A stretch of 52,228 bases of DNA from positions 1 to 52,228 of the IMG/VR virus record IMGVR_UViG_3300007276_000008; one strand, given 5' to 3'. The DNA is from a virus. Below the pieces are notes generated by a model. That model was not told the origin of the DNA and ran no database searches. It saw only the letters and a list, made by a program, of their open reading frames with translations. Shown here in pieces: positions 5,279 through 52,228 of this stretch. Position 1 is the stretch's first letter, and the number at the start of each line of letters is the position of its first letter. The position numbers and the translations under genes are program-made.

Positions 5279-5313
5279 GGCCGCTCTTTTACTAGGGTGG
5301 CTTATTTTTTTTT
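5279..5313 (+). terminator. Intrinsic terminator after lysis cassette
   Basis: GGCCGCTC pairs with GGGTGGCT (several G-U pairs) around an 8-base loop and is followed by TTATTTTTTTTT. It separates the lysis genes from the first of the repeated-promoter units. Confidence 0.75.
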
Positions 5314-8057: not shown

Positions 8058-9557
8058 TTGGAACAGGATAAAATTATAAACTTCCAACCTCAAAAGGGTT
8101 ACCAATTAAGCGCTTTAAGCAGCTCTGCCGATATTGTAATTGGCGGAGGTGCTGCAGGCGTAGGCAAAACCTTTACACTATTATACGAATACCTTAGGAA
8201 TAAGGACGTTAACAATTTTGGTGCAGTTATATTTAGACGCACCTCTCCACAAATAAGGGCTCAGGGAGGGCTATGGGACGCGTCAACGGAGTTATATAGT
8301 TATGTTTTAGATGCTGAACCTAAGCAAACAACGCTGGAGTGGAATTTTGGTGATACGTCAAAGCTAAAATTTAGCCACTTGGAATATGAAAAAAACATAT
8401 ATGACTGGCAGGGTTCTGAAATACCGTTTATTGGCTTTGATGAATTAACGCACTTTTCACAAAAAATGTTTTTTTATATGCTAACAAGGAATAGGTCTAC
8501 TTGTGGTGTAAAACCTTATATAAGGGCTACCTGCAACCCTGACCCTGATAGTTGGGTATCTGAACTAATTGAATGGTGGATAGGCGAAGACGGCTTTCCT
8601 ATACCCGAACGCGAGGGCGTGCTGCGATACTTTGCAAAGGACGGTGACACATTTATTTGGGGCGATACGGAACAGGAATGCGTTGACAAGGCATGGTATT
8701 TTTTAAAGCCATTAGTGGAGCGCAGCAACATTGACCCAAAACACTTTGTAAAATCACTTACATTTATTGGTGGTGATATTTATGACAACAAGGCACTGCT
8801 AGACACCAACCCTGATTACCTAGCAAATTTAGCATCACAGGATGAACAAACCAGGTTGCAGCTATTAGAAGGAAATTGGAAAGTAGCATTAAACCCACAG
8901 GACGTTTATCCATACCTTGCGTTTAAGGACTTTTTTACTAACAAGTGGGTTCCTACAGGACTAAAATGTATTTCAGTAGATGTGGCTATGTCAGGTGCCG
9001 ACAAATTGATTATAATGTACTTTGACGGCAAGCGCTTGGAGGATATTGCAGTAATACCAAAGTCAAGTGGAAAAGACGTGCTGGACCAAATACAGTTAAT
9101 GCAAAACAAATATGGTGTACCTAATAGCAAAGTGACGTATGATGCAAATGGAGTAGGTGCATTTATAGGAGGGCAGGACAATGCATTTATACCTGGCTCA
9201 GAAGCATTTTTTAATAATGGGCGCATGAACTTTCAAGCTAATGACCCTAGGAAGTTTAAAAATTTAAAGGCGCAGTGCTATTTCTTAGATGGCGAGGACG
9301 AGGAACAATACATTTCTGAAAAAGTTGCAAACACCATGTATGACAATAAAATGACAGTTAGGCAAAGGTTTTTATTTGAGCGTAAAGCAATAAAGAAAAA
9401 AGCATTAATTGACGAGGAGCCGCTGCAAACAATTAAAAAAGATGAAATGAAAGAGAAGTGGTTAAGTGGCGACAGTCCAGATTTAATGGACGCGTATATG
9501 CAAAAGCGCCTATTTTACTTGGATAGGTACGAAAGTTTAGACGTTGATTGGAATTAA
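8058..9557 (+). CDS. terL: Terminase large subunit
   Basis: 499 residues. The ATPase has Walker A GGGAAGVGKT (29-38), Walker B FIGFDE (124-129) and motif III IRATCNP (155-161). The C-terminal RNase H-like nuclease has ISVDVAMSG (Asp308), VTYDANGVGA and a late Asp in SPDLMDAYMQKR. It cuts and pumps DNA into the prohead through the portal. No ATG fits before the Walker motif, and a TTG at 8058 gives full length. Unusually, it lies about 15 kb upstream of terS and 22 kb from the portal gene. Confidence 0.95.
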   Translation: MEQDKIINFQPQKGYQLSALSSSADIVIGGGAAGVGKTFTLLYEYLRNKDVNNFGAVIFRRTSPQIRAQGGLWDASTELYSYVLDAEPKQTTLEWNFGDTSKLKFSHLEYEKNIYDWQGSEIPFIGFDELTHFSQKMFFYMLTRNRSTCGVKPYIRATCNPDPDSWVSELIEWWIGEDGFPIPEREGVLRYFAKDGDTFIWGDTEQECVDKAWYFLKPLVERSNIDPKHFVKSLTFIGGDIYDNKALLDTNPDYLANLASQDEQTRLQLLEGNWKVALNPQDVYPYLAFKDFFTNKWVPTGLKCISVDVAMSGADKLIIMYFDGKRLEDIAVIPKSSGKDVLDQIQLMQNKYGVPNSKVTYDANGVGAFIGGQDNAFIPGSEAFFNNGRMNFQANDPRKFKNLKAQCYFLDGEDEEQYISEKVANTMYDNKMTVRQRFLFERKAIKKKALIDEEPLQTIKKDEMKEKWLSGDSPDLMDAYMQKRLFYLDRYESLDVDWN

Positions 9558-10274: not shown

Positions 10275-10376
10275 TTGAAGCATTTCAAAAAAATATATAA
10301 GGCAGTGGATTATAAAGGTTGTGATGTACCTTTGTTTGAAGCTGCCTTTCTTCATTTAAACCAAATAAAAATATGA
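10275..10376 (+). CDS. Possible leader peptide or small ORF before folE, 33 aa
   Basis: An open frame from TTG at 10275 reads through to a TGA that overlaps the folE start as ATGA. The peptide is mixed basic and hydrophobic (KHFKKIYKAVDYKGCD, then LFEAAFLHLN). The same DNA also forms a hairpin, so it may be a leader rather than a protein gene. Start codon choice is uncertain. Confidence 0.3.
   Translation: MKHFKKIYKAVDYKGCDVPLFEAAFLHLNQIKI
10299..10348 (+). promoter_or_regulatory. Structured leader hairpin upstream of folE
   Basis: AAGGCAG (10299-10305) pairs with CTGCCTT (10342-10348); inside, AAAGGT (10314-10319) pairs with ACCTTT (10328-10333) around an 8-base loop. The second arm is followed by TCTTCATTT. 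It could be an attenuator or a metabolite-responsive leader; no known riboswitch class was recognised. Confidence 0.35.
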
Positions 10377-10921
10377 GCAAAAACGACAAGCAAGTAGCAG
10401 AATATCACATGCGTGAATTCTTAACTGCAATGGGTCAGGACGTGACGCGTGAAGGGTTGCAGGAAACACCTAAAAGGTACGTCAAGTTTATGGAGGAGTT
10501 TTTAAGCCCTCCTAAGTTTAATTTCACAACGTTTGACAGCGAGGGTTATGATGAAATGGTATTAGTAAACAATATACCTTTCTTCTCGTTCTGCGAGCAC
10601 CATATAGCACCGTTTTTTGGTGTTGGTCATATTGCATATATTCCGGACAAAAAAATAGTAGGTATTAGCAAGTTACCAAGGACATTGGATATGTTTTCGC
10701 AGCAGCTACAAAACCAGGAAAGGATTACCGAACAAGTTGCAGCAAAAATAATGGAGGAATTAAACCCACGAGGCGTTGCCGTAGTGCTAAAAGCGCGTCA
10801 CATGTGTATGGAGATGCGAGGTGTAAAAAAACATGACACATGGACTACGACAAGCAAAATGGTAGGTGCTTTCAAAGAGGACTTAATTTGCAGGAATGAA
10901 TTTTTAAATTTAATCAAATGA
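10373..10921 (+). CDS. folE: GTP cyclohydrolase I
   Basis: 182 residues, close to the usual catalytic core length. FSFCEHHIAPFFG (Cys74, Glu75, His76, His77) and ARHMCMEMRG (Cys145) provide the zinc ligands and active site of GTP cyclohydrolase I. The enzyme makes dihydroneopterin triphosphate from GTP in the cytoplasm, the first step towards both folate and 7-deazaguanine. With queD, queE and a DpdA-like gene on the same genome, a role in deazaguanine synthesis for DNA modification is much more likely than folate. It ends in a 4-base overlap with the next gene. Confidence 0.93.
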   Translation: MSKNDKQVAEYHMREFLTAMGQDVTREGLQETPKRYVKFMEEFLSPPKFNFTTFDSEGYDEMVLVNNIPFFSFCEHHIAPFFGVGHIAYIPDKKIVGISKLPRTLDMFSQQLQNQERITEQVAAKIMEELNPRGVAVVLKARHMCMEMRGVKKHDTWTTTSKMVGAFKEDLICRNEFLNLIK

Positions 10922-11259
10922 AAATGAATATAGTTGTTAAATTAGAATTAGAGGGTTTGCACCATTGGCCAAATTGTCCATTGCCTGAAGTTGCATATTT
11001 AAAGGATTTGCATAGGCATATTTTCCACATAGTTGCCAAAAAGGAAGTAATGCATTCTGACAGAGATGTGGAAATTATAATGTTTAAAAAACTACTAAAA
11101 GTATATTTGGTAAAACAATATTGGGATACGGATTATAAGTGCTGCAATTTTAGAACATTAAGTTGTGAAGCTATTGCGGAGGAATTATTAACAACATTTA
11201 AACTAACCTTTTGCAGCGTTTTAGAGGATAACGAAAACGGTGCTGAAATAACAAACTAA
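10918..11259 (+). CDS. T-fold protein related to QueD/6-pyruvoyltetrahydropterin synthase
   Basis: 113 residues. LEGLHHWPNC and LKDLHRHIFHIV resemble the AxH...HxH zinc site of QueD/PTPS; FRTLSCEAIAEELL resembles the PTSE-like segment, and FCSVLEDNENGAEI the C-terminal Glu-containing strand. It is shorter than typical QueD, and a clearer QueD lies at 15250, so this is a divergent second T-fold protein. Overlap with folE (AAATGA) suggests it acts on the folE product or on the modified base. Its specific reaction cannot be assigned. Confidence 0.5.
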   Translation: MKMNIVVKLELEGLHHWPNCPLPEVAYLKDLHRHIFHIVAKKEVMHSDRDVEIIMFKKLLKVYLVKQYWDTDYKCCNFRTLSCEAIAEELLTTFKLTFCSVLEDNENGAEITN

Positions 11260-11260
11260 C

Positions 11261-12271
11261 ATGACAGACGATATCAAAAAGCAAATTGATGACATAGCTT
11301 TAAACTTGCCAGAATTTGCGTTTAAAAAAATTGACCAACATTTGCTGCTTGAAGAAATCACATCAGGCAAAAACATTAAAACAGCAAAGCTACCTAGGAT
11401 ATACCAAATGGAAACCACGTCACGCTGTAATTTAGCCTGCCCGTTTTGTCCACGCACTACGGATTTGGTTGCAAACGGAGTAAGGGATTTAAAATCCACT
11501 ATGCCATTTGAGGACTTTGTAAAAGTGTTGGATAAGATGCCTTGGTTAAAGTCACTTGAACTGTTTCACTTTGGTGAACCTTTTATGCAAAAGGATTTTG
11601 AAAGGTACGTGCAGGAATGTACTGACAGAGGTATTTATACAGTTGTAGCAAGTAATTTATTACCGGCAACTCCAGCAAAAATAGACAAGGTTTTTGCAGC
11701 AGGATTAGACTTTTTAGTAATGGACGTTGACAGCTTAGACCCTGAGAAATACGCATCAATGCGCGTAAACGGTAAGTTGGAGAGGCTGCAACCTATTGTA
11801 GAATACATTTTAAACCACCCTGAGCGCCCTTATACAGTTGCGCAAACTATTAACATAGACGGTGTAAAAGAATACACTGAAGAGGAGTTTTTGAAGTGGA
11901 GTAATGGTGCAATGCCAGATGAAATACGATATAAATTCCTGGACAGTTTTAGAGGTGAGATAGCACCTGAAAAAGGTACACTAGGACCTGATGATGTTTG
12001 CAAGGAAGCATTTTACGGATTTACAGTGCATGTAAACGGAAACGTCGTAGTTTGTGACAGGGATTGGGGGGGTGAGAATGTGATGGGTAATATATTTGAG
12101 CAAACAGTTGACGAGATATGGTGGGGAGATAAGTTTCAGGAGTTTAGGCGCCAAATGTTATCTGACGAGAAACCTGACATGTGTAAAAAGTGTCCGGAGG
12201 GTCGTTTGTTTAATGCGCGCAGCCAGGACCACATACAGGTAAACATGTTTAAAGGATTAGAAGTTGAATAA
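11261..12271 (+). CDS. Radical SAM/SPASM-domain enzyme
   Basis: 336 residues. RCNLACPFC gives the radical SAM CxxxCxxC motif (Cys56, Cys60, Cys63) for a [4Fe-4S] cluster that cleaves S-adenosylmethionine. Further cysteines in DDVCKEAF, VVVCDRDW and PDMCKKCPEG near the C-terminus form a SPASM-type auxiliary cluster domain; NGNVVVCDRDWGG is typical of that family. Its substrate is unknown. It starts one base after the T-fold gene stop and is followed by a glycosyltransferase and the DpdA-like gene, so it may tailor the 7-deazaguanine base or a sugar. It is distinct from queE at 16004. Confidence 0.85.
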   Translation: MTDDIKKQIDDIALNLPEFAFKKIDQHLLLEEITSGKNIKTAKLPRIYQMETTSRCNLACPFCPRTTDLVANGVRDLKSTMPFEDFVKVLDKMPWLKSLELFHFGEPFMQKDFERYVQECTDRGIYTVVASNLLPATPAKIDKVFAAGLDFLVMDVDSLDPEKYASMRVNGKLERLQPIVEYILNHPERPYTVAQTINIDGVKEYTEEEFLKWSNGAMPDEIRYKFLDSFRGEIAPEKGTLGPDDVCKEAFYGFTVHVNGNVVVCDRDWGGENVMGNIFEQTVDEIWWGDKFQEFRRQMLSDEKPDMCKKCPEGRLFNARSQDHIQVNMFKGLEVE

Positions 12272-12287
12272 ATAAAAACCAAACCAA

Positions 12288-13289
12288 ATGAAAATATTTT
12301 ATATTGCACTTGAAAACATTGAACAGCGTTATACACCAATGATGAATAATGCGCTGTATGATTTAGTTGACAAAGTAATTTACCCGGAATTTAATTATCC
12401 TGAGGTAATTGAAACGGGACAATTTTTAGACGTAAACAAAACCATAATTTTTAAGTCCTTGCAGTTGCATGATATTGCTCAACTGTTTTACAAAAACGAG
12501 GTTGAAAGTGGTGATGTCTTTTTAGTAGGTGACATATTTTTTCCTGGCATTGAATCCATAAAGTATATGTCTGAACTACAAAATTTAGACGTAAAAATTT
12601 ATGCATTTAATTACGCAGGCAGGAGTGACAAAACTGACTTTGTTCGCAAGCTAGGCAAGTGGGCTGATTATAGTGAACAAGGTTACCACGAGATATGTGA
12701 CCGTATATTTGTTGGCAGCGAATTCCACAAACAAAATGTAGTTAGCTACTTTAATATTGACCCTAACAAAGTAATGGTTACCGGTTATATATGGGATAGG
12801 AGTTTTGTTGCAAGTATTTACAACGTCAAAACGCCTACGGGTGACCAAGTTATATGGCCACACCGTTTGAGCAAGGAGAAGGGCTTAAATGACTTAATAT
12901 CCTATGCAGTTTTAAACCCTAAGCAAAAAATAGTTGTAACAAGCTGCGGCAATAAGGTTGACATGCGTTTACCTGACAACGTTGAATACAAATATAATTT
13001 GACAAAAGCTGAATATTATGAAGAATTAGCATGGTCCAAATATTACCTAAGTACTGCATACCAGGAAACGTTCGGATACACTTTGCAAGAGGCAATACAT
13101 TTTGGTTGCGAAATTGCAGTACCAAACAGGGCATGCTATCCTGAAATGGTACCAAGTGAATGTTTATACGACAAAATTGAGGACGTTAAATTTCACAAAG
13201 TGCCAAAATACCACACTGAAAAGTGGAACAATAATGCAAAAAATATATTAACCATAATCACTAAAGATGCATATAATAGTCGCAGGTAG
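12288..13289 (+). CDS. GT-B fold glycosyltransferase (GT4-like)
   Basis: 333 residues. The C-terminal half shows WPHRLSKEKGLNDLI (nucleotide-sugar domain entry), KIVVTSCGNK and the ETFGYTLQEA segment, which is an E-x7-E motif of retaining GT-B enzymes, followed by GCEIAVPN. The N-terminal half is a Rossmann-like domain. Donor and acceptor cannot be read from sequence. It lies between the radical SAM gene and the DpdA-like gene and overlaps the latter by 23 bases, suggesting that modified DNA bases or an intermediate receive a sugar. Confidence 0.75.
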   Translation: MKIFYIALENIEQRYTPMMNNALYDLVDKVIYPEFNYPEVIETGQFLDVNKTIIFKSLQLHDIAQLFYKNEVESGDVFLVGDIFFPGIESIKYMSELQNLDVKIYAFNYAGRSDKTDFVRKLGKWADYSEQGYHEICDRIFVGSEFHKQNVVSYFNIDPNKVMVTGYIWDRSFVASIYNVKTPTGDQVIWPHRLSKEKGLNDLISYAVLNPKQKIVVTSCGNKVDMRLPDNVEYKYNLTKAEYYEELAWSKYYLSTAYQETFGYTLQEAIHFGCEIAVPNRACYPEMVPSECLYDKIEDVKFHKVPKYHTEKWNNNAKNILTIITKDAYNSRR

Positions 13290-14064
13290 TAACACAAATA
13301 ATTCAGCCGGAATGTGTAAGGAGTTAGGGCTGTTTAAATTACATAGTATTTTAAATGAGAAAAAGGATATTGAGAATTGGGACGACAAGCACTTTTTAAT
13401 GGTTGACAGCGGTGCTCATAGTTGGAATAAGGCTCACATGCACCACGTTGGAATGAAGGGTAAAACAAAGCTACCTGACCCTAAAGTGTTTTTGGAAACT
13501 TACATTAAATTTATTAAAAAGCACGCGCACAAAAAATTGGTGTTTGTGGAGTTTGATGTGTATGGCAATTTACCGTATGATTATATCACTGCAAAGTATA
13601 ATGAAATAAAAGCAATACCTGGCAACTTTAAAATAATGCGCGTGTACCACCAAATGCTTGACGGAGGGTCATTACGCGTGTTAAAGGAGTGGATAAATGA
13701 GGGGCAGGATTATATAGGAGTAGGTGCTGATTGCGCGCCAATATTTGATGACGTGTTCGCACTTACAAAAGATAAAGTAAAACTCCACGGATTTGCAATG
13801 ACAAAGCTACCTTATATTACCAAATATCCGTTTTGGAGTGTTGACAGCACCTCGCCTTTAAGCACTGTAATTTTTGGTAGGTACAGCAAACCGGTATTTA
13901 ACTTTAAAGGGCGCGTTGACGTGCATAAAGAAAAGTCAATTGAATGCTTTCACGAGGATACGGAAAGGCTTAGGAACGCACTAATTGAAACAAAAGAAAC
14001 TGAAGATTATATAACAGCATTATGGAAAAAACGACAAGTAATATGGGAAGAATTGAAGTATTAG
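13267..14064 (+). CDS. dpdA: DpdA-like DNA guanine transglycosylase
   Basis: 265 residues with a tRNA-guanine transglycosylase (TGT)-like pattern. MVDSGAHSW (Asp47) matches the DSGGFQ active-site segment of TGT; VEFDVYGN (Asp97), YIGVGAD and WSVDSTSP (Asp192) follow in the order expected of the barrel, Asp192 being the candidate nucleophile. It is shorter than tRNA-modifying TGT and lacks an obvious zinc-binding Cys cluster, as in phage DpdA. DpdA enzymes swap guanine in DNA for a 7-deazaguanine, blocking restriction enzymes. The neighbouring precursor genes strongly support this. The exact DpdA subfamily is not assigned. Confidence 0.75.
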   Translation: MHIIVAGSNTNNSAGMCKELGLFKLHSILNEKKDIENWDDKHFLMVDSGAHSWNKAHMHHVGMKGKTKLPDPKVFLETYIKFIKKHAHKKLVFVEFDVYGNLPYDYITAKYNEIKAIPGNFKIMRVYHQMLDGGSLRVLKEWINEGQDYIGVGADCAPIFDDVFALTKDKVKLHGFAMTKLPYITKYPFWSVDSTSPLSTVIFGRYSKPVFNFKGRVDVHKEKSIECFHEDTERLRNALIETKETEDYITALWKKRQVIWEELKY

Positions 14065-14534
14065 ACATCAACAGCATTAAGTCAGCAGGCTTTAATGTAA
14101 AAAACAAAATTGGCGAACACTTACAAAGCAAGCATGTCAGTTTAATTAAGCAGCATGGCCAAATTAAATTAATTGTGGTTGCACATGTTGAAGGCAATAC
14201 AGTTGTAATAGACGGTGACAAGTATTTAGAAACGTGTAAGGAAGCAGGGTTGTCAAGCGTAAATTGCAAGTCCTTAGGGCATATCACACCTGAAGCTGCA
14301 ATTATATATAGGTTGTTTTTAAACTACCACGAGCAGCGCTTAGACTACATAGGCGTCGCTGAAGCCATGCAGCCATTAAAAGGAAATAAAACGGATAGTG
14401 AACGCATAAGTATACGCACAGGCATACCGTTTAAGGATATTGAAAGGTTTTGTGACTTAATTGATTTTGATTGGAGCCAATACCTAAAGCTAGACGACAA
14501 CAATGCACAAATAGACATGTTCCAAGGTTTATAA
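14022..14534 (+). CDS. ParB/sulfiredoxin-fold protein
   Basis: 170 residues. IEVLDINSIK opens a ParB N-domain-like pattern, with IKLIVVAHVEGNTVVIDGDK and a following Gly-rich turn; HITPEAAIIYRLF and SIRTGIPFKDIERF form the helical part. It overlaps the DpdA-like gene by 43 bases; an alternative ATG at 14043 would cut the overlap to 22. ParB-like proteins can be nucleases or CTP/ATP-binding DNA clamps and are often found beside DNA modification genes. Its role here is unknown; it could guide or couple modification to DNA. Confidence 0.6.
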   Translation: MEKTTSNMGRIEVLDINSIKSAGFNVKNKIGEHLQSKHVSLIKQHGQIKLIVVAHVEGNTVVIDGDKYLETCKEAGLSSVNCKSLGHITPEAAIIYRLFLNYHEQRLDYIGVAEAMQPLKGNKTDSERISIRTGIPFKDIERFCDLIDFDWSQYLKLDDNNAQIDMFQGL

Positions 14535-14561
14535 TTTTTTTTGAAGTTTTTTTGTTTTATG

Positions 14562-14593
14562 TTTGGCAGTATTAAAATATTGTATATCTTTAC
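14562..14593 (+). promoter_or_regulatory. Bacteroidetes-type promoter, class A
   Basis: TTTGGCAGTATTAAAATA followed by TATCTTTACAGTGTAATAATAA. Drives 14629 and 14784, and perhaps queD and queE by read-through. Confidence 0.85.
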
Positions 14594-14628
14594 AGTGTAA
14601 TAATAAATTAACTTAAAATTAAAACATC

Positions 14629-14778
14629 ATGAAAAATTTAACAGCAGACGATTTAAAAAGATTATGGTTATTAGCTGATACCAGAGCAGAAGAATGCAAT
14701 GAGGGCAGCAAAACAAAAAAAATATACTCAGAATTATCTGACAAAGTTTGGAACGAATTACAACTAAAAAACAAATAA
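14629..14778 (+). CDS. Small helical protein, 49 aa
   Basis: ATG preceded by AAAACATC directly downstream of a class A promoter. Charged, Trp/Leu-containing helix beginning MKNLTADDLKRLWLLADTRA. Function unknown. Confidence 0.6.
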   Translation: MKNLTADDLKRLWLLADTRAEECNEGSKTKKIYSELSDKVWNELQLKNK

Positions 14779-14783
14779 ACATC

Positions 14784-14966
14784 ATGAACACGACAAGCAA
14801 ATTATTAGAAAAATTATTCGGTCAAGGAAAAAACGCATTTCACAACATGAAAAAATTAGGTGTTAAATCCTATGCTGTTGACAATAACGGTCAAGCCCGA
14901 TTATTTATGTTAAACGGTAAAACAGTTTTTGCAAATACCGTTAATGGTGAATTAAAACGAAACTAA
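14784..14966 (+). CDS. Small basic protein, 60 aa
   Basis: The ATG at 14784 follows the AAACATC context; a start at 14748 would lie inside the preceding gene. Begins MNTTSKLLEKLFGQGKNAF, then a beta-like part with KSYAVDNNGQARLFMLNGK. A hairpin follows. Function unknown. Confidence 0.6.
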   Translation: MNTTSKLLEKLFGQGKNAFHNMKKLGVKSYAVDNNGQARLFMLNGKTVFANTVNGELKRN

Positions 14967-14975
14967 ACTAACAAC

Positions 14976-14997
14976 GGGCCGCTTCTGGTGGCCCTTT
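14976..14997 (+). terminator. Hairpin after 14784 gene
   Basis: GGGCC (14976-14980) pairs with GGCCC (14990-14994) and is followed by TTT, then A-rich sequence. The short U-tract suggests partial termination, allowing read-through to queD and queE, which have no closer promoter. Confidence 0.55.
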
Positions 14998-15031
14998 AAA
15001 ACTTCTTATTAACTTTCTAAATTCAAATTAA

Positions 15032-15250
15032 ATGAAAAAACTATTAGCAGTATTAATCCTATTACCAACCTTATTAGGTTGCAGCATTTTAAAATCAATT
15101 AACTATGTAACCGTTTGCGCTGAACCGGGTACTATTGTTGAAATATCTAGATACGGTAAGTATAAGGCAAACAACAAAGCAGTGACAAAAAAAGTGGCTG
15201 ATAGTTTATGTTTAAATATTGCATTTAAGCAATACAAAAACAGACAGTAA
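15032..15250 (+). CDS. Small lipoprotein
   Basis: 72 residues. MKKLLAVLILLPTLLGCS is a signal peptide with lipobox LLGC, so the mature protein would be acylated at Cys17 and anchored in a membrane. The mature part is basic with two further Cys. It overlaps queD by one base (TAATGG). Phage lipoproteins can act in lysis or superinfection exclusion; no specific function can be assigned. Confidence 0.6.
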   Translation: MKKLLAVLILLPTLLGCSILKSINYVTVCAEPGTIVEISRYGKYKANNKAVTKKVADSLCLNIAFKQYKNRQ

Positions 15251-15747
15251 TGGCATTCAAAAGCAGCAAATTATTCAGCGGGTATTCCGTAGCATTAAGG
15301 CAACATAAGGCACAGCATAGCCACTGCCAATTATTGCACGGATACGCGCTTGAATTTTACATTGAATTTGAACCAATACCAAAATTTGAAAAAAACGCAT
15401 CTGAACCGTCTGGTTGGGAAGAGATGCCAGGTGAATTAGACGAAATGAATTGGGTAGTTGATTTTGGAGGTTTTAAGCGTAATGGCTTAAAGGAGTGGAT
15501 GGACAGCATGTTTGACCATACTGTTTTAATTGAGAAAGATGACCCTTATTTGGACTACTTTTTAGGAATGAATGGTGAGGGTATTGCAAAAGTAATTCCG
15601 TTGGATATGATGGGCGCTGAAGCACTTGCAAAACTTGTCTACGATAAATTTAATGACGTATTAAGTAAAACAGATGGCGGGCGCTGTCGTGTTATTAAAG
15701 TTGAATGCCGCGAAAACAAAAATAATAAAGGAATTTATACAAGATGA
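15250..15747 (+). CDS. queD: 6-carboxy-5,6,7,8-tetrahydropterin synthase
   Basis: 165 residues. HSHCQLLHGYALEF carries the catalytic Cys26 and a zinc His30; the canonical HGH is HGY here, a variant I associate with phage and environmental QueD. MNWVVDFGGFK and FDHTVLIEKDDP match the conserved acidic strand and the DH motif; VECREN supplies the C-terminal Glu. The enzyme converts dihydroneopterin triphosphate, the FolE product, into carboxytetrahydropterin. It is followed by an 86-residue gene (4-base overlap) and queE. Confidence 0.85.
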   Translation: MAFKSSKLFSGYSVALRQHKAQHSHCQLLHGYALEFYIEFEPIPKFEKNASEPSGWEEMPGELDEMNWVVDFGGFKRNGLKEWMDSMFDHTVLIEKDDPYLDYFLGMNGEGIAKVIPLDMMGAEALAKLVYDKFNDVLSKTDGGRCRVIKVECRENKNNKGIYTR

Positions 15748-16004
15748 AAACACTAAAAGCACCAAACGAGGTGATATTGTCAATTTGGGAAACTGAACTC
15801 AAATTAAGGAATAAAAACAACGAAATCCAATGCGTGGTTAATGTAGGTACTACAATTGACGTTGGTGACGTTATTATAGGAGGTATGATGGACGGAGGTG
15901 TTAGTACTTACGAAGTTTTAGAAATAGTGGAAACGCGTCCTGCTGCATTAAGTAACAAAACACTTTACAAACTAAAAACCCATTGGGCTAAAAAAGCAAA
16001 CTAA
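15744..16004 (+). CDS. Hypothetical protein between queD and queE, 86 aa
   Basis: Overlaps queD by ATGA and queE by one base, so the three are translationally coupled. Beta-rich: VILSIWETELKLRN, then VGTTIDVGDVIIGG and a Gly/Met turn, ending in Lys/Trp. No known motif. Its placement suggests a role in the deazaguanine pathway or in handling the product, but there is no direct evidence. Confidence 0.6.
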   Translation: MKTLKAPNEVILSIWETELKLRNKNNEIQCVVNVGTTIDVGDVIIGGMMDGGVSTYEVLEIVETRPAALSNKTLYKLKTHWAKKAN

Positions 16005-16699
16005 TGAAGCAGCAATTAATAGTCGCAGAAAAGTTTTACAGTATACAAGGCGAGGGCGTTACCTCAGGAATTCCTGCTGTATTTTTACGCCTAAGCGCGT
16101 GTAATTTATTATGCAAATCAGAGCATTGGATATGTGATTCGATAGCAAGCTGGCAGCCTAAGGGTACAAAAACGCCTTATGACGAGGTATTAACCGGTGA
16201 GCTTTTGGAGCAGCTACAAAAAGGCGCGCACTTAGTTATCACAGGAGGTGAACCTTTATTGCAACAAAAGCATATTGTGAAATACATAACTTGGTTTTTA
16301 GTTAAACATGGATTTAAACCAATTATTGAAATTGAAACCAATGGTACGCTGCTACCAAACGAGCATTTAATAGGATACGTGGATTATTGGAATTGCTCGC
16401 CTAAATTAGCAAACAGTGGTGAAACGCATAAAAGGCGCGTGAACAAAATTGCTATACGGGAACTAAACAAGCATAACACCATATTCAAGTTTGTTATAAC
16501 TGAAAAAACTGACTTTCTTAATATTTTACAGGACTATGACATTATTGATATGAAAAAATTAGTGCTGATGCCTGGTGGAGATACGCGTTTTAAGTTAGCA
16601 AAAACCAGACCAATTGTAGCTGAACTATGTAAGGAAATGGGACTCCGTTACAGTGACAGGTTGCAAGTTGTAATATGGAATGAATCTTTAGGAGTATAA
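16004..16699 (+). CDS. queE: 7-carboxy-7-deazaguanine synthase
   Basis: 231 residues. FYSIQGEG is the QueE signature; the cluster motif ACNLLCKSEHWICDS is an expanded Cys-x3-Cys-x6-Cys; ITGGEPLLQQ is the SAM-binding GGEP motif; IEIETNGTL and NCSPKLANSGE follow in family order. The enzyme uses SAM and a [4Fe-4S] cluster to make CDG from carboxytetrahydropterin. No QueC gene, which would convert CDG to preQ0, is visible here. The expanded cysteine loop resembles other non-canonical QueE proteins. Confidence 0.9.
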   Translation: MKQQLIVAEKFYSIQGEGVTSGIPAVFLRLSACNLLCKSEHWICDSIASWQPKGTKTPYDEVLTGELLEQLQKGAHLVITGGEPLLQQKHIVKYITWFLVKHGFKPIIEIETNGTLLPNEHLIGYVDYWNCSPKLANSGETHKRRVNKIAIRELNKHNTIFKFVITEKTDFLNILQDYDIIDMKKLVLMPGGDTRFKLAKTRPIVAELCKEMGLRYSDRLQVVIWNESLGV

Positions 16700-23351: not shown

Positions 23352-23927
23352 ATGGAACTACTACCTAAAGAAATAGCAAAGGACTTTAAAAGCAAAAGAC
23401 AAATACTATTTATTCAAGAATACGTAAAAGACCGTAATGGTACACAGGCAGCAATAAGGGCAGGATATACTAAAAAAAATGCAAAAGTGTCAGCGTCACA
23501 ACTGCTAACGAAGCCTAACATACAAAAGGGTATTAACTACCTTTATGAGCAAATTAGGATTAGAAATGAGGTGGGAATTGATGAAGTCATAGCTGTCTTA
23601 GCGTCACAATTACGGTTTGATATTGCGGAGTTGTTTGATGAGAATGACAATTTAAAAAGCGTTCATGACATACCTTTGCACATGCGTAATAGTATAGAAG
23701 AGATAACGGTAAACGAGATATGGGAACATGACAGGGACGGCAATAGGATACAAACGGGCGTCACTAAAAAGATTAAAACAGCAAGCAGGCAAGGTGCTGC
23801 TAAAATGTTATTGCAGCACTTAGGCGCGTTCGCAAAGCATAACAAGCAAAAGCGTACTCAGGTAGCAGTTTTTAACATGCCTGACAATAATAGGGTAATA
23901 AATGTAAAAGAAAATGAAGAAAATTAA
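23352..23927 (+). CDS. terS: Terminase small subunit
   Basis: 191 residues. KRQILFIQEYVKDRNGTQAA, RAGYTKKNAK and SASQLLTKPNIQKGI are the N-terminal helix-turn-helix pattern of Terminase_2-type small subunits. DEVIAVLASQLRFDIAELF and the later KTASRQGAAKMLLQHLGAF belong to the oligomerisation part. It recognises phage DNA and hands it to TerL. It is separated from terL (8058) by about 14 kb and is followed by a 1.26-kb region with no gene. Confidence 0.85.
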   Translation: MELLPKEIAKDFKSKRQILFIQEYVKDRNGTQAAIRAGYTKKNAKVSASQLLTKPNIQKGINYLYEQIRIRNEVGIDEVIAVLASQLRFDIAELFDENDNLKSVHDIPLHMRNSIEEITVNEIWEHDRDGNRIQTGVTKKIKTASRQGAAKMLLQHLGAFAKHNKQKRTQVAVFNMPDNNRVINVKENEEN

Positions 23928-24013
23928 AAAAAAATTATCCTAGTGTTTACGGAGCCTGAGTCAGCATTATACACGCGATAGACAAAAAAGATTTGAATTA
24001 TTTTTAGATAATG

Positions 24014-24046
24014 TTTGGCAGTTAGTAAGATAAGTTATATATTTAC
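24014..24046 (+). promoter_or_regulatory. Promoter of the large noncoding RNA, class B
   Basis: TTTGGCAGTTAGTAAGATAAG followed by TATATTTACAGTG. No start codon or coding frame follows for about 1.1 kb, so the promoter appears to serve an RNA. Confidence 0.8.
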
Positions 24047-24090
24047 AGTGTTAAACAGTAATAAAAGTTCTTAAACATATTGAAACAACA

Positions 24091-24152
24091 AAGCAAGTAA
24101 ACTGGTAACGATTGGCGTCTGACCTCAACACTATCTTATAACTTGCTTTTTT
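24091..24152 (+). ncRNA. RNA motif copy 1 with terminator-like stem
   Basis: AAGCAAGT (24091-24098) pairs with ACTTGCTT (24141-24148), followed by T-rich sequence. The enclosed 34-base core (24103-24136) begins TGGTAACGAT and recurs at 24168 with two changes. In the core, TTGG (24112-24115) can pair with TCAA (24125-24128) around a 9-base loop, CGTCTGACC. Confidence 0.65.
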
Positions 24153-24157
24153 AAATA

Positions 24158-24211
24158 ACAGTTGAATTGGTAACGATGGGCGTCTGACCTCCACACTATC
24201 TCAGGAACTGT
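24158..24211 (+). ncRNA. RNA motif copy 2
   Basis: ACAGTT (24158-24163) pairs with AACTGT (24206-24211). The core (24168-24201) matches copy 1 at 32 of 34 bases. The two differences, T to G and A to C, are the two sides of one base pair of the inner helix. The outer stem sequence is unrelated to copy 1 but still complementary. Confidence 0.65.
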
Positions 24212-24940
24212 AAATTAAAAACCCTGGACAAACTTTGTATTTGGCAGTAACATTTAAAACAAACTTGGTGGAAACCTCTTCGGAGATAAAACAATTCCAA
24301 TGGAAACAACAAAATGTGAATAGCTGAATGTTTGGAAACAAATTTACGAAAGGAGCAAATTAGGAAAGTTGCAAGATGCAGCAAGTACGACGCTAGGGTT
24401 TTTTTTTTAAATATATAATTTTAGCAATAGTAAGTAAGTGGTTATTCGGAATAGCACCACGTAAAACTATACACCGAGGAAAAAAGTAGGCTATATTGCA
24501 AAATTACAATTTAAAAAGTGCGCTGAATTATTTGTTATTACAGTAAGGAAAGTAGGATAATTTTTTTAGGAAAATTTTAAGGTAGCGTTATTAGAGTTAC
24601 AACGTTAAAAGGTCGTTCCTTTTTAGGCTCATGCACCATTATAAGTCTTATAAGTACTGAATTATTAACTATACAGTAGGCGCGCTTTTTTACAAACTTA
24701 AAAAAGTGCAACGGAGTTGATGCGCTTTGGTTATAACTGCAATGTAAAGACATTATAAGTTTCAAGCTAATGGACAAACAGTCCTACACCTTAGGGTTTA
24801 TGTTAGTGTTCCTTATAAGCAGCCAAAGAGAAGTAAATGACTAATTACCATTTGCAGCATTTAAACAAGTACGAAGTCGGCCACTTCACGATTATAGCAC
24901 GGAAATATAGGCCAATGCATTCCCCAGATTAATAGCAGTT

Positions 24941-24969
24941 AAGGCTCACTTTAAATAGTGGGCTTTTTC
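24941..24969 (+). terminator. Terminator of the large noncoding RNA
   Basis: AAGGCTCACT pairs with AGTGGGCTT around TTAAAT (two G-U pairs) and is followed by TTTTT. It closes the noncoding region. Confidence 0.8.
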
Positions 24970-24995
24970 TGTTTAGGAAAGTTTTCAAGAAAATG

Positions 24996-25028
24996 TTTGG
25001 TAGTTGTAAAGATAGTTCGTAATTTTAT
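24996..25028 (+). promoter_or_regulatory. Degenerate promoter copy
   Basis: TTTGGTAGTTGTAAAGATAG matches the class B upstream half, but the downstream element is TAATTTTATTG instead of TATATTTACAG. Probably weak or inactive. The DNA to 25116 shows no gene; it holds a 16-base AT palindrome at 25068-25083. Confidence 0.4.
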
Positions 25029-25116
25029 TGTTGGTGCTCTGCTCTGAAATTTGCATGCTCCATTATTACTATATATATATAGTGTAAAAATTAATTTGCT
25101 TTTTTTCATAAATAAA

Positions 25117-25148
25117 TTTGGCAGTATTAAAATAATTGCTATCTTTAC
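25117..25148 (+). promoter_or_regulatory. Bacteroidetes-type promoter, class A
   Basis: TTTGGCAGTATTAAAATAATTG followed by CTATCTTTACAGTG. Drives 25190 and the small-gene run behind it. Confidence 0.85.
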
Positions 25149-25189
25149 AGTGTTGCAATATTGCAGCTATAATTTAAACATCACGCATC

Positions 25190-25615
25190 ATGAAAACATC
25201 AGCACAAATTGTTCAAGATTTAAAATCAGAATTAGACAACTCCATTAACCATTTGCAAAAAGACATTTCGCATCATATGGAGAGATTAAACAGCAACTTT
25301 TTATTCAACGCCAAATGGGTGTTTGAGGATACGCTAAAAAGCAACCTTAAATTAAAGGAATTAAGTTTGTTATTGGAAACACTACACCAAGAGGATATTA
25401 CAAAGTCCAACGGAGAGGTTTTAAAGGGTACAGACCAGAACAGACTACTTTGGTTCAGACAAGCTGTAAAACACTTAGAAGCGTTTACCTCTAAAAGCCA
25501 CAACGTAATGAGCAGCTCAACCTGTTCAGTTACTAACTTACAAACCACATTGACATTTATGGTTAAGTTAGAGGTTCAAGAGGAAATGAATCACTTACTA
25601 AATTTTTACTCATAA
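25190..25615 (+). CDS. Helical hypothetical protein, 141 aa
   Basis: ATG preceded by CATCACGCATC. Mostly helical with His/Leu-rich segments and an N-terminal coiled-coil (KSELDNSINHLQKDISHHME). Overlaps the next gene by one base (TAATG). No family recognised. Confidence 0.65.
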   Translation: MKTSAQIVQDLKSELDNSINHLQKDISHHMERLNSNFLFNAKWVFEDTLKSNLKLKELSLLLETLHQEDITKSNGEVLKGTDQNRLLWFRQAVKHLEAFTSKSHNVMSSSTCSVTNLQTTLTFMVKLEVQEEMNHLLNFYS

Positions 25616-30528: not shown

Positions 30529-30843
30529 ATGAAACCCTCAGATGATACAGACGAGCCAGTAGATTGGACCTTACTGCATCAGCAGCGCAAACAAGCAAGG
30601 CTTGACAAGTGGCTAAAAGTATTGCCGCAGTTGCACCACATAACCCTAATAAAGCATATTGAAGCAGATTTGTATGTTATACACTTACCTCAATTAGGAA
30701 AATGTGATTTTAGTGTAAAGTCAGATAAAATAAAAGTTGTGGTAAAAGATGAAACGCGTGTTAATGCATATAAGTTGATTTTAAACTGCCTGGGTTTATA
30801 CGAGCTGGAGGGTCAGCTGCTTAAAAAAGACATTTCAGGCTAG
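30529..30843 (+). CDS. Hypothetical protein, 104 aa
   Basis: Acidic start (KPSDDTDEPVDW), basic helix (QQRKQARLDKWLKVL), then strands IEADLYVIHLPQLGKCDFS. Its stop codon lies in the first arm of a nested inverted repeat that precedes the portal operon. Confidence 0.6.
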   Translation: MKPSDDTDEPVDWTLLHQQRKQARLDKWLKVLPQLHHITLIKHIEADLYVIHLPQLGKCDFSVKSDKIKVVVKDETRVNAYKLILNCLGLYELEGQLLKKDISG

Positions 30844-30993
30844 GGCACCAGCAATAAAGATATAGACTATTTTTATATTTACCAAATAATTTAAAAGAAA
30901 ACTTTCCAAGCAAAAGAAAGGCTCACAAATTAATGCAAGCCTTATAACCCTTTTACCATGATATTTTTGCTAAGGATGCTGGTCCTTGCCCTA
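30841..30993 (+). promoter_or_regulatory. Nested inverted repeats upstream of portal operon
   Basis: Four collinear pairs nest inside each other: TAGGGC/GCCCTA, CCAGC/GCTGG, GCAAAA/TTTTGC and AAGGCT/AGCCTT. A weak promoter-like TATATTTAC lies at about 30876. It could be a structured leader or noncoding RNA of the late operon. CTGAGCGAAGTAGTCGAAG follows at about 30995, resembling a dispersed flavobacterial intergenic sequence. Confidence 0.45.
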
Positions 30994-31107
30994 CTGAGCG
31001 AAGTAGTCGAAGCAAATATAATAAAAAATATTGGAATTACAGGAAATTTGTTTAGATTTGTAGCTAAACGGCAAAGGACTGCTTTGAAAATTATTATAAG
31101 TGTCTAA
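30958..31107 (+). CDS. Small hydrophobic-N-terminus ORF, 49 aa
   Basis: MIFLLRMLVLALLSEVVEAN, then a basic tail with KRQRTALKIII. It overlaps the portal GTG start by 8 bases in another frame. Could be a small membrane peptide or a leader ORF for the late operon. Coding status uncertain. Confidence 0.35.
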   Translation: MIFLLRMLVLALLSEVVEANIIKNIGITGNLFRFVAKRQRTALKIIISV

Positions 31108-32818
31108 ACAATTCCTAGTAGATAATGTCAATAGTACTGCTTTGGTGGAAGCCCGCAAGCAGGCTAAACAAATAGCCTATCTAACACAATCATCCATACA
31201 ACAAGAAATTACCGCTGCATACCTAAACCAATGGGCTGAACGCAATTTTGTAGGTACGGATTATTTTTTAAATTGGGTAAAAGCTGTTTTACGAACTGAA
31301 AATTTCCTACACTTTTATAAGTACTTTAGGCATCCTATTGCAAGTTCAGCAGTTATAAACAACAAAATTTTGCCAGCATTGGAACGCGTTTTTTTTGCTG
31401 ATGACAGTTACTTTAGGTACAATATTGGTAATGAAGAGGTAACAAGTGTAGAGGAACTAGGCAGTCCTGAGTTTGATGAAGTAGTATTTGAAGCAGTTAT
31501 ATTTAGGCATAATGACATATTTTGGTATGACTACGAGGATATAAACAAGCCTATACGCAAACTAATTGATATTGAAAATGTATACGCAATTGATTGTGGT
31601 AGGAATGACATTTACCAAATTGCTATTAAGGGCGTGCATGAGGGCAAAGCAGTAATAATTTATGCAAACCAAACGGAGTATATTATTTATAATTACGCTT
31701 TTGAACCTTTAGCAGTTATACCACACGATTTAGGATTATGCCCGGCTGACTTTGTTAGCAAAGACCCGTTAAATTCCAAAAAAAATAATGTAGTAAGGAA
31801 AAGTTTATTTTCATATTCAATTGAAAAGCTAGAGGAGTACGTATTCCTAAAAACATTGCAGCGCATGACAGAGGCAAATGGCGCCATTCCAATTACTACG
31901 GAAATAAAATCTGACAAAAAGAAAACAGAAGGTGAGCAAGCAAAAGCGCTACCCGCTGAGCCAATGTCTACCGCACTTATAAAAGGTCACAATGGCGAGA
32001 TAGCCGGCAACGTTTTAGGACAGCAAAGCGACAACGTATTAATGGCTGGAACGCGTATTAAAATACCACCTATTAGGAAGCAAGACGGTTCATATGATAT
32101 GGACGCAATTAAGCATTTCGTCAACTTTTTTTACACGCCAATTGAAGCGTTGGAATACCTAAATTCACGCGTTGAAAACATTGAAAAGGATTTAATGATT
32201 GACTTAATTGGTGATTATAGCGAAGACAATGAAGCAGCAAAAAACGTTTTACAAGTAAGTAAAGGATTTAAAAGCAAGCAAGACAAGTTACGGAAGCAGT
32301 CAGAATTGATGTCGTGGTTGCGCACGCGCTCGGATAAAAAAATGCTGCTTATGCTATTAGCCAACCAAAATATAACAGTAGAAGGCACGTACGGAACTGA
32401 TTTCTTTTTGGAAAGCCAACAGGAATTGTATAAAATGTTTGCTGAAAGTCCAAATGCAATTGAGCGCAAAAGCATATTAATTAGGTTAGTAAGGAACAGG
32501 AATAAGGACAATATTAAGCGAGGGGAGAAGGACGAATTAATGTATAAATTATTGCCTTTTGCAAGCGATATTGACTTTGACAAAGCATTAGAATATAACA
32601 AAGTAGGAGATATAACTTTTCAAATGCAAACAAGGATGGACTATTATTTGTCTATTTTTGAAAGCAGGTACGGTGATATTTGTTACTTTTACAACATGTT
32701 AGAAAGTGAAGAAAGCGTAAGGTTAGTAACCATTTCTAATTTATTAATTAACATAATAAAAGAATATTATGAAAAACCAGAAATCCCAGAAGGCAGTGTT
32801 ACACCTGAGAGTGTATAG
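31100..32818 (+). CDS. Portal protein
   Basis: 572 residues from a GTG start. Size, position at the head of the capsid gene block and pattern fit a phage portal: N-terminal helical entry (RKQAKQIAYLTQSSIQQEI), beta wing (VFFADDSYFRYNIGNEEV), later a helix-rich stem and a charged C-terminus (EYYEKPEIPEGS). It forms the ring at one capsid vertex through which TerL pumps DNA. Exact family not named. Overlaps the next gene by 50 bases. Confidence 0.75.
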   Translation: MSKQFLVDNVNSTALVEARKQAKQIAYLTQSSIQQEITAAYLNQWAERNFVGTDYFLNWVKAVLRTENFLHFYKYFRHPIASSAVINNKILPALERVFFADDSYFRYNIGNEEVTSVEELGSPEFDEVVFEAVIFRHNDIFWYDYEDINKPIRKLIDIENVYAIDCGRNDIYQIAIKGVHEGKAVIIYANQTEYIIYNYAFEPLAVIPHDLGLCPADFVSKDPLNSKKNNVVRKSLFSYSIEKLEEYVFLKTLQRMTEANGAIPITTEIKSDKKKTEGEQAKALPAEPMSTALIKGHNGEIAGNVLGQQSDNVLMAGTRIKIPPIRKQDGSYDMDAIKHFVNFFYTPIEALEYLNSRVENIEKDLMIDLIGDYSEDNEAAKNVLQVSKGFKSKQDKLRKQSELMSWLRTRSDKKMLLMLLANQNITVEGTYGTDFFLESQQELYKMFAESPNAIERKSILIRLVRNRNKDNIKRGEKDELMYKLLPFASDIDFDKALEYNKVGDITFQMQTRMDYYLSIFESRYGDICYFYNMLESEESVRLVTISNLLINIIKEYYEKPEIPEGSVTPESV

Positions 32819-52004: not shown

Positions 52005-52228
52005 ACGACAACAAACAACTAACAACAGCAAAACCATTGGAAACGCAGGAAGGTTTATTTATAATGAAATGGCGCAGTTTTGTTCCTATGATTATAGGCA
52101 TTATATTAAGCACAAATACCGTATCCATATTTTATCAAAAGCAACAGCGGCATGACGAGGAGTTATTGCACCAAGCAGCATTAATTGAATATAATAAGGA
52201 ACGCGCTGATAGGATAGCTGAACGCAAA
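52001..52228 (+). CDS. Small membrane protein with coiled-coil tail (5' part; continues at 1)
   Basis: The ATG overlaps the previous stop as ATGA. Residues 1-24 are polar, 26-45 hydrophobic, then a charged helix. The frame continues without interruption in the terminal repeat and reaches its stop at position 198 on the left end, giving 100 residues in the circular genome. Confidence 0.75.
   Translation, partial: MNDNKQLTTAKPLETQEGLFIMKWRSFVPMIIGIILSTNTVSIFYQKQQRHDEELLHQAALIEYNKERADRIAERK
52106..52228. repeat. Terminal direct repeat, right copy
   Basis: Identical to bases 1-123. Removing one copy gives a circle of 52105 bases with an intact gene across the join. Confidence 0.95.

Follow-up and report, generated by a model that had tools for sequence, protein, structure and literature searches.

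The window, a stretch of 52,228 nt analysed in full, represents a complete Bacteroidota phage genome. Its ends (positions 1-123 and 52106-52228) overlap by 123 bases and are bridged by a contig of the same species (L013), indicating that the 52.1-kb genome is circular or circularly permuted and that the record is complete. Its genes, virtually all on the + strand, include those encoding the terminase large subunit (TerL, 8058-9557), RecT, an exonuclease, the terminase small subunit (TerS, 23352-23927), the portal protein (31100-32818), and a tail module. We did note that the TerL and TerS genes are 14 kb apart, which is unusual among tailed phages, and that 10373-16699 holds genes of the 7-deazaguanine pathway (GTP cyclohydrolase, Tgt-like, QueD, and QueE) together with radical SAM and glycosyltransferase-like genes, a probable DNA modification set.

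Directly downstream of the TerS gene, 23928-25050 forms a stretch of 1123 nt with no + strand ORF of at least 45 a.a.; + strand ORFs of that size cover 92.4% of the genome, and the second-longest + strand gap of this kind measures 252 nt. Short frames within the gap, on both strands, scored at most +0.14 bits/codon, a value to be read against large phage genes (mostly 0.17–0.44) and some accepted small ORFs (just 0.01–0.1 bits/codon), and five of the gap's short frames returned no match when searched against PHROG. A hidden or decayed gene was rejected on these weak codon scores and the lack of a PHROG match, and the roughly 0.9 kb without a gene-like frame noted in the preliminary description was thereby borne out. 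The features of the interval are as follows:

23352..23927, + strand: terminase small subunit gene, adjoining the unit upstream (PF03592, E 1.7e-31; phrog_51, E 1.2e-31)
24014 to about 24047-24050, + strand: promoter of the phage's own family, TTTGGCAGT ... TATATTTACA (TTTGGCAG...TATATTTACAGTG), whose elements and spacing recur before ~10 other phage genes
24048..24089, + strand: probable 5′ leader, read from the sequence
24215..24940, + strand: noncoding body of the unit, in which conserved structure was not detected
24218-24225 with 24395-24405, + strand: possible AACCCT/AGGGTT + T10 terminator-like closure within the noncoding body
24941-24966, + strand: intrinsic terminator, AAGGCUCACUUUAAAUAGUGGGCUUU-UUCU, marking the end of the unit and also lying within the left arm of an inverted repeat

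A promoter of a genome-wide family ahead of the unit and a strong terminator behind it had both been proposed from the sequence, and both held on inspection. The promoter is one of ~10 such sites upstream of phage genes (5332, 6299, 7025, 9581, 14562, 21534, 24014, 25117, 29044, and 29785; consensus TTTGG[CT]AGT ... TATNTTTACAGTG / TATNTTTACAGTGT), and the promoter and leader of the unit are together 80–91% alike to stretches at 5311, 6299, 7003, and 9559. The combination of promoter, gene-free gap, and terminator makes a gene-free transcription unit at 24014-24967 credible, and the sequence gives good support to its prediction as a noncoding unit that has a promoter and a terminator to itself.

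The promoter family is near to, yet distinct from, the standard Bacteroidota promoter (TTG...TANNTTTG), and a single stretch similar to it occurs in the Elizabethkingia phage TCUEAP1. Within the leader, a candidate 6-codon leader peptide frame (TTG-AAA-CAA-CAA-AGC-AAG-TAA, 24080-24100) would end inside the 5′ arm of the first hairpin described below; its start context resembles that of real phage genes (AAACATCATGAAAAC).

Folding and relatives of the 0.9-kb interval

The preliminary description had taken the interval for a large structured RNA, with at least nine helices that included a C-UUCG-G tetraloop and a 10-bp stem. The sequence CUC-UUCG-GAG is indeed present at 24276-24285, and the long stem is confirmed as well, 24090-24098 pairing with 24141-24149 over 9 bp; helices beyond those expected by chance were not indicated by the z-scores. 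Compared with dinucleotide shuffles, the MFE z was +1.19 for the full 924 nt (24047-24970), −0.15 for 24215-24967, −1.0 for 24215-24404, and +0.06 for the last 563 nt (24405-24967), while 120-nt windows had a mean z of +0.2 in the region vs. −0.1 at 160 random places in the genome.

Rfam release 15 gave no match in the window at gathering scores and only noise in 23900-25200 at E 5. The covariance models of GOLLD and ROOL, to which the sequence had already been reported as unmatched, likewise found nothing in the window at gathering score or in 23900-25200 at E 5, and no tRNA genes were found in the 52-kb genome. No relative of the 0.9-kb sequence emerged when the region was compared by Blast with 50,697 phage records and with the 35 viral records that encode a related TerL. 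The sole close IMG/VR contig over the region belongs to the same species (99.9% identical), and TerS and portal searches of IMG/VR recovered only near-identical contigs of the same phage, leaving the long RNA with no homologue beyond its own species in these collections.

GOLLD and ROOL RNAs have extensive covariation-supported structure across most of their length and form a homo-oligomeric RNA cage. The unit resembles them in length and in being a predicted noncoding unit of a phage, flanked by a promoter and a terminator that belong to it, but it lacks a covariance-model match and a tRNA island, shows no more structure than shuffles, and has no relatives of the long RNA from which covariation could be drawn. 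Given that GOLLD and ROOL adjoin tRNA islands often (PMC12286853), the lack of tRNA genes alone is not decisive. With energy z-scores near or above zero and no homologues of the long RNA, a giant ornate RNA was rejected, and we regard a GOLLD/ROOL-like RNA of ~0.9 kb at this locus as highly improbable. The expectation that the space is under selection survives for two hairpins at the 5′ end, which carry compensatory changes, and finds no structural signal in the remaining body. Selection on structure is shown only for these two ~60-nt hairpins, and the case illustrates how a giant RNA reading can reduce to a small real element.

Tandem hairpins and a third copy in a Flaviramulus prophage

Direct repeats of 37 nt (92%) came to light at 24100 and 24165 in a repeat search, each copy lying inside its own hairpin within the first 170 nt of the unit, a repetition of one motif that the preliminary description had overlooked. 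The outer stems of the two hairpins differ, and the repeat copies themselves differ at three positions, two of which together turn a U-A pair of the inner stem into G-C, a compensated change. Given this compensated pair, the core was searched with stem positions left free. A third copy lies in a Flaviramulus sp. genome (L142:6791-6852), with which the two copies in the window can be compared:

24090..24149, + strand: hairpin 1, with a 9-bp outer stem (AAAGCAAGU/ACUUGCUUU) and a 5x5 internal loop (AAACU/UUAUA), then UUUUUU; z −2.1
24104..24135, + strand: conserved core, copy 1, GGTAACGATTGGCGTCTGACCTCAACACTATC, 93% identical over 42 nt to the Flaviramulus copy
24158..24211, + strand: hairpin 2, with a 6-bp outer stem (ACAGUU/AACUGU) in the same register
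24169..24200, + strand: conserved core, copy 2, GGTAACGATGGGCGTCTGACCTCCACACTATC, with one mismatch to the Flaviramulus core (31/32)

The Flaviramulus copy (AACACTGCTC-AAACT-GGTAACGATGGGCGTCTGACCTCCACAATATC-TTATA-GAGCAGTGTT) has a perfectly paired 10-bp outer stem, and its inner flanks (AAACT/TTATA) are those of copy 1. It resides in a prophage, surrounded by terminase (TerS and TerL), repressor, portal, and antirepressor genes; the tape-measure, tail, exonuclease, and RusA-like proteins of this prophage are 34–64% identical to those of the window phage; the exonuclease, RusA-like, and tail proteins are the clear proteins common to both phages. The hairpin is present there as a single copy, is transcribed in the same direction as the neighbouring genes, and lies ~290 nt behind a predicted Bacteroidota-type promoter (TTG...TATATTTG), between a small ORF and a gene encoding a WYL_2 protein (an Sm-like SH3 barrel; PF10902, E 1e-16) whose ATG is 15 nt downstream.

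All three copies share one layout, a 54–60-nt hairpin in the window, in which a variable, perfectly paired outer stem leads through a 5x5 internal loop to a helix of 4 bp, one of them an invariant G-U, and then to an inner hairpin of fixed sequence. The 32-nt cores agree at 29–31 of 32 positions, while the outer stems are unrelated in sequence and fully paired; for the first 22 bases of core copy 1 alone, no match is expected in shuffles. The three-sequence alignment has all 45 of its 45 cells paired, with 8 of 16 pairs changed on both sides, values reached by none of 500 shuffles, and structures slid along the alignment pair just 37–54% of cells. RNAalifold, unaided, gives the same fold with 8 compensated pairs. 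The outer arms (9, 6, and 10 bp) stand at an identical distance from the core in all three copies, a register at which arms of at least 6 bp occur at 0.04% and of at least 9 bp at 0.002% of genome positions. A covariance model scored the two carriers at 96.6 and 94.1 bits and everything else tested (214 kb) at 16 or below. By folding energy alone, hairpin 2 is no more stable than shuffled sequence (z −0.35). Given that the invariant G-U of helix 2 would be C-A on the opposite strand, the + strand RNA is favoured as the selected form. Only two phages contributed to the three aligned copies, one genome supplying two, so sampling of the core is thin and its identity may partly reflect short divergence.

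Further copies were sought widely. Relaxed DNA patterns run over IMG/VR returned this species plus chance matches, and a pattern scan of GTDB (one genome per species, 84,980 species) returned 68 matches, mostly random, with one true match, the Flaviramulus genome; given that both scans need exact words, diverged copies may be missed. The Flaviramulus genome was again the only one to respond when 397 Flavobacteriaceae and 395 Bacteroidota genomes were searched by model or pattern, the 35 TerL-related viral records contained no match, and phage and plasmid records contained none of weight, the model searches having covered about 790 genomes plus viral records.

Function aside, it is very likely that a selected RNA hairpin motif exists. 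We read the tandem hairpins as a new phage RNA element not catalogued in Rfam, and this 5′ element is the only demonstrable functional part of the unit's predicted noncoding transcript. It represents a structured motif absent from Rfam that is backed by compensatory changes from just three copies, and the phages that carry it belong to a phylum for which few RNA regulators have been described.

Possible roles of the hairpin element

The free outer stem and fixed core suggest that the core is recognised and that the stem serves as its scaffold. The predicted transcript of 24014-24967 would present the tandem element at its 5′ end, where it would probably act in cis on the nascent transcript, the core binding RNA polymerase or a protein. 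Our tentative preference is for such a cis-acting element, most likely an antiterminating one; its likeliest single role would be that of a processive antiterminator or anti-pausing element working like HK022 put. Bacterial RNA that is not translated tends to be terminated early when nothing protects it. In the window, the element would protect the 0.7 kb of RNA downstream, which is not translated and has terminator-like sites, and in the prophage, an early operon that extends to the antirepressor gene. The copies lie on the transcribed strand, close behind predicted promoters (~40 nt in the window and ~290 nt in the prophage) and ahead of stretches in need of such protection, although the terminator at 24941 suggests that the window transcript ends there. 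A polymerase-only element might also be expected to be commoner than one match in 84,980 species genomes, and there are only three copies in two phages.

The put element of HK022 consists of two stem-loops (~70 nt) that act on RNA polymerase in cis with no need of a dedicated protein, one copy lying at its promoter and the other ~270 nt downstream (PMC9378689). By comparison, the window carries two stem-loops of 60 and 54 nt, both falling within ~165 nt of the predicted start and on the strand that is transcribed, a short way behind a predicted promoter; the prophage carries one. The element described here has no recognised sequence similarity to put, no Rfam family of any kind having matched it, and occurs in another phylum, and its two stem-loops are repeats of each other, of which one can stand alone, as in the prophage. 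It is possible, if somewhat doubtful, that these hairpins represent a new class of Bacteroidota phage element, a self-contained ~60-nt fixed-core hairpin used singly or in tandem, either as a put-like antiterminator outside Proteobacteria or read by a regulator not yet known.

The single Flaviramulus hairpin, placed right before a start codon, fits translational control of WYL_2 equally well, and a protein-binding control element was ranked nearly as likely as the antiterminating one, although on its own account it is rather unlikely. A phage RNA-binding protein would then recognise the core, the prophage WYL_2 mRNA being repressed or protected and the window RNA acting as a sponge, consistent with the 15-nt distance to the WYL_2 start codon and with the resemblance of two copies on a gene-free RNA to sponge RNAs. 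Such a combination of variable stem and fixed core is typically seen in hairpins to which proteins bind. A search for a PF10902 protein in the window phage found none, so the WYL_2 protein was rejected as the common partner, and the proteins clearly common to both phages reveal no shared binder. The variable closing helix, fixed core (~42 nt), and tandem arrangement are shared as well with tandem riboswitch aptamers, and a small-molecule aptamer or small self-cleaving ribozyme in tandem was considered. We think it unlikely, given that no Rfam riboswitch or ribozyme matched even at E 10, that the element is absent from the sampled host genomes except for one prophage, and that no gene follows the window unit; in contrast to both riboswitch aptamers and protein-bound phage hairpins, it has no Rfam family and no known ligand or protein.

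Solitary RNA anti-CRISPRs are known, and Racr RNAs mimic CRISPR repeats (PMC10651486). A trans-acting decoy aimed at the host, perhaps one that imitates a host RNA or a defence RNA, would suit a gene-free phage unit with its own promoter and terminator, but the prophage copy sits inside an operon. Comparison of the core with Rfam CRISPR repeat families gave nothing above noise, the best match (E ~0.4, 15–19 bits vs. a cut-off of 50) lying outside the core, and a decoy role appears quite improbable. Still less probable is a DNA-level site, such as a packaging (cos/pac) signal or a single-strand origin hairpin beside the TerS gene. The hairpin does lie between the TerS and portal genes in both phages; however, the covarying arms and invariant G-U favour a folded + strand RNA, and, when compared, neither the two terminase subunits (small and large) nor the portals were alike between the phages, making a shared recognition site or packaging signal unlikely. 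A packaging RNA or DNA site was rejected on this lack of likeness between the terminase and portal genes. The short fixed core and free stems would make the element cheap to test in reporters.

The adjoining inverted repeat

The terminator of the unit falls within one arm of an inverted repeat, whose arms flank 5.8 kb of small ORFs:

24930..25050, + strand: left arm (~121 bp), holding the terminator, GGAAAGTTTTC, a promoter-like site, and a TTTATTGYTGGTGC... / TTTATTGYTGGTGCYCTRSYCTGAAATKT element
30832-30955, − strand: right arm (~124 bp), aligned locally with the left arm at a score of 99 vs. a maximum of 59 in 300 random pairs

The left arm is probably a neighbour of the hairpin element and not a part of it. 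The repeat may have arisen as an inverted duplication; alternatively, it may mark a cassette that is invertible or mobile. The right arm provides a − strand promoter in a genome that is nearly all + strand.
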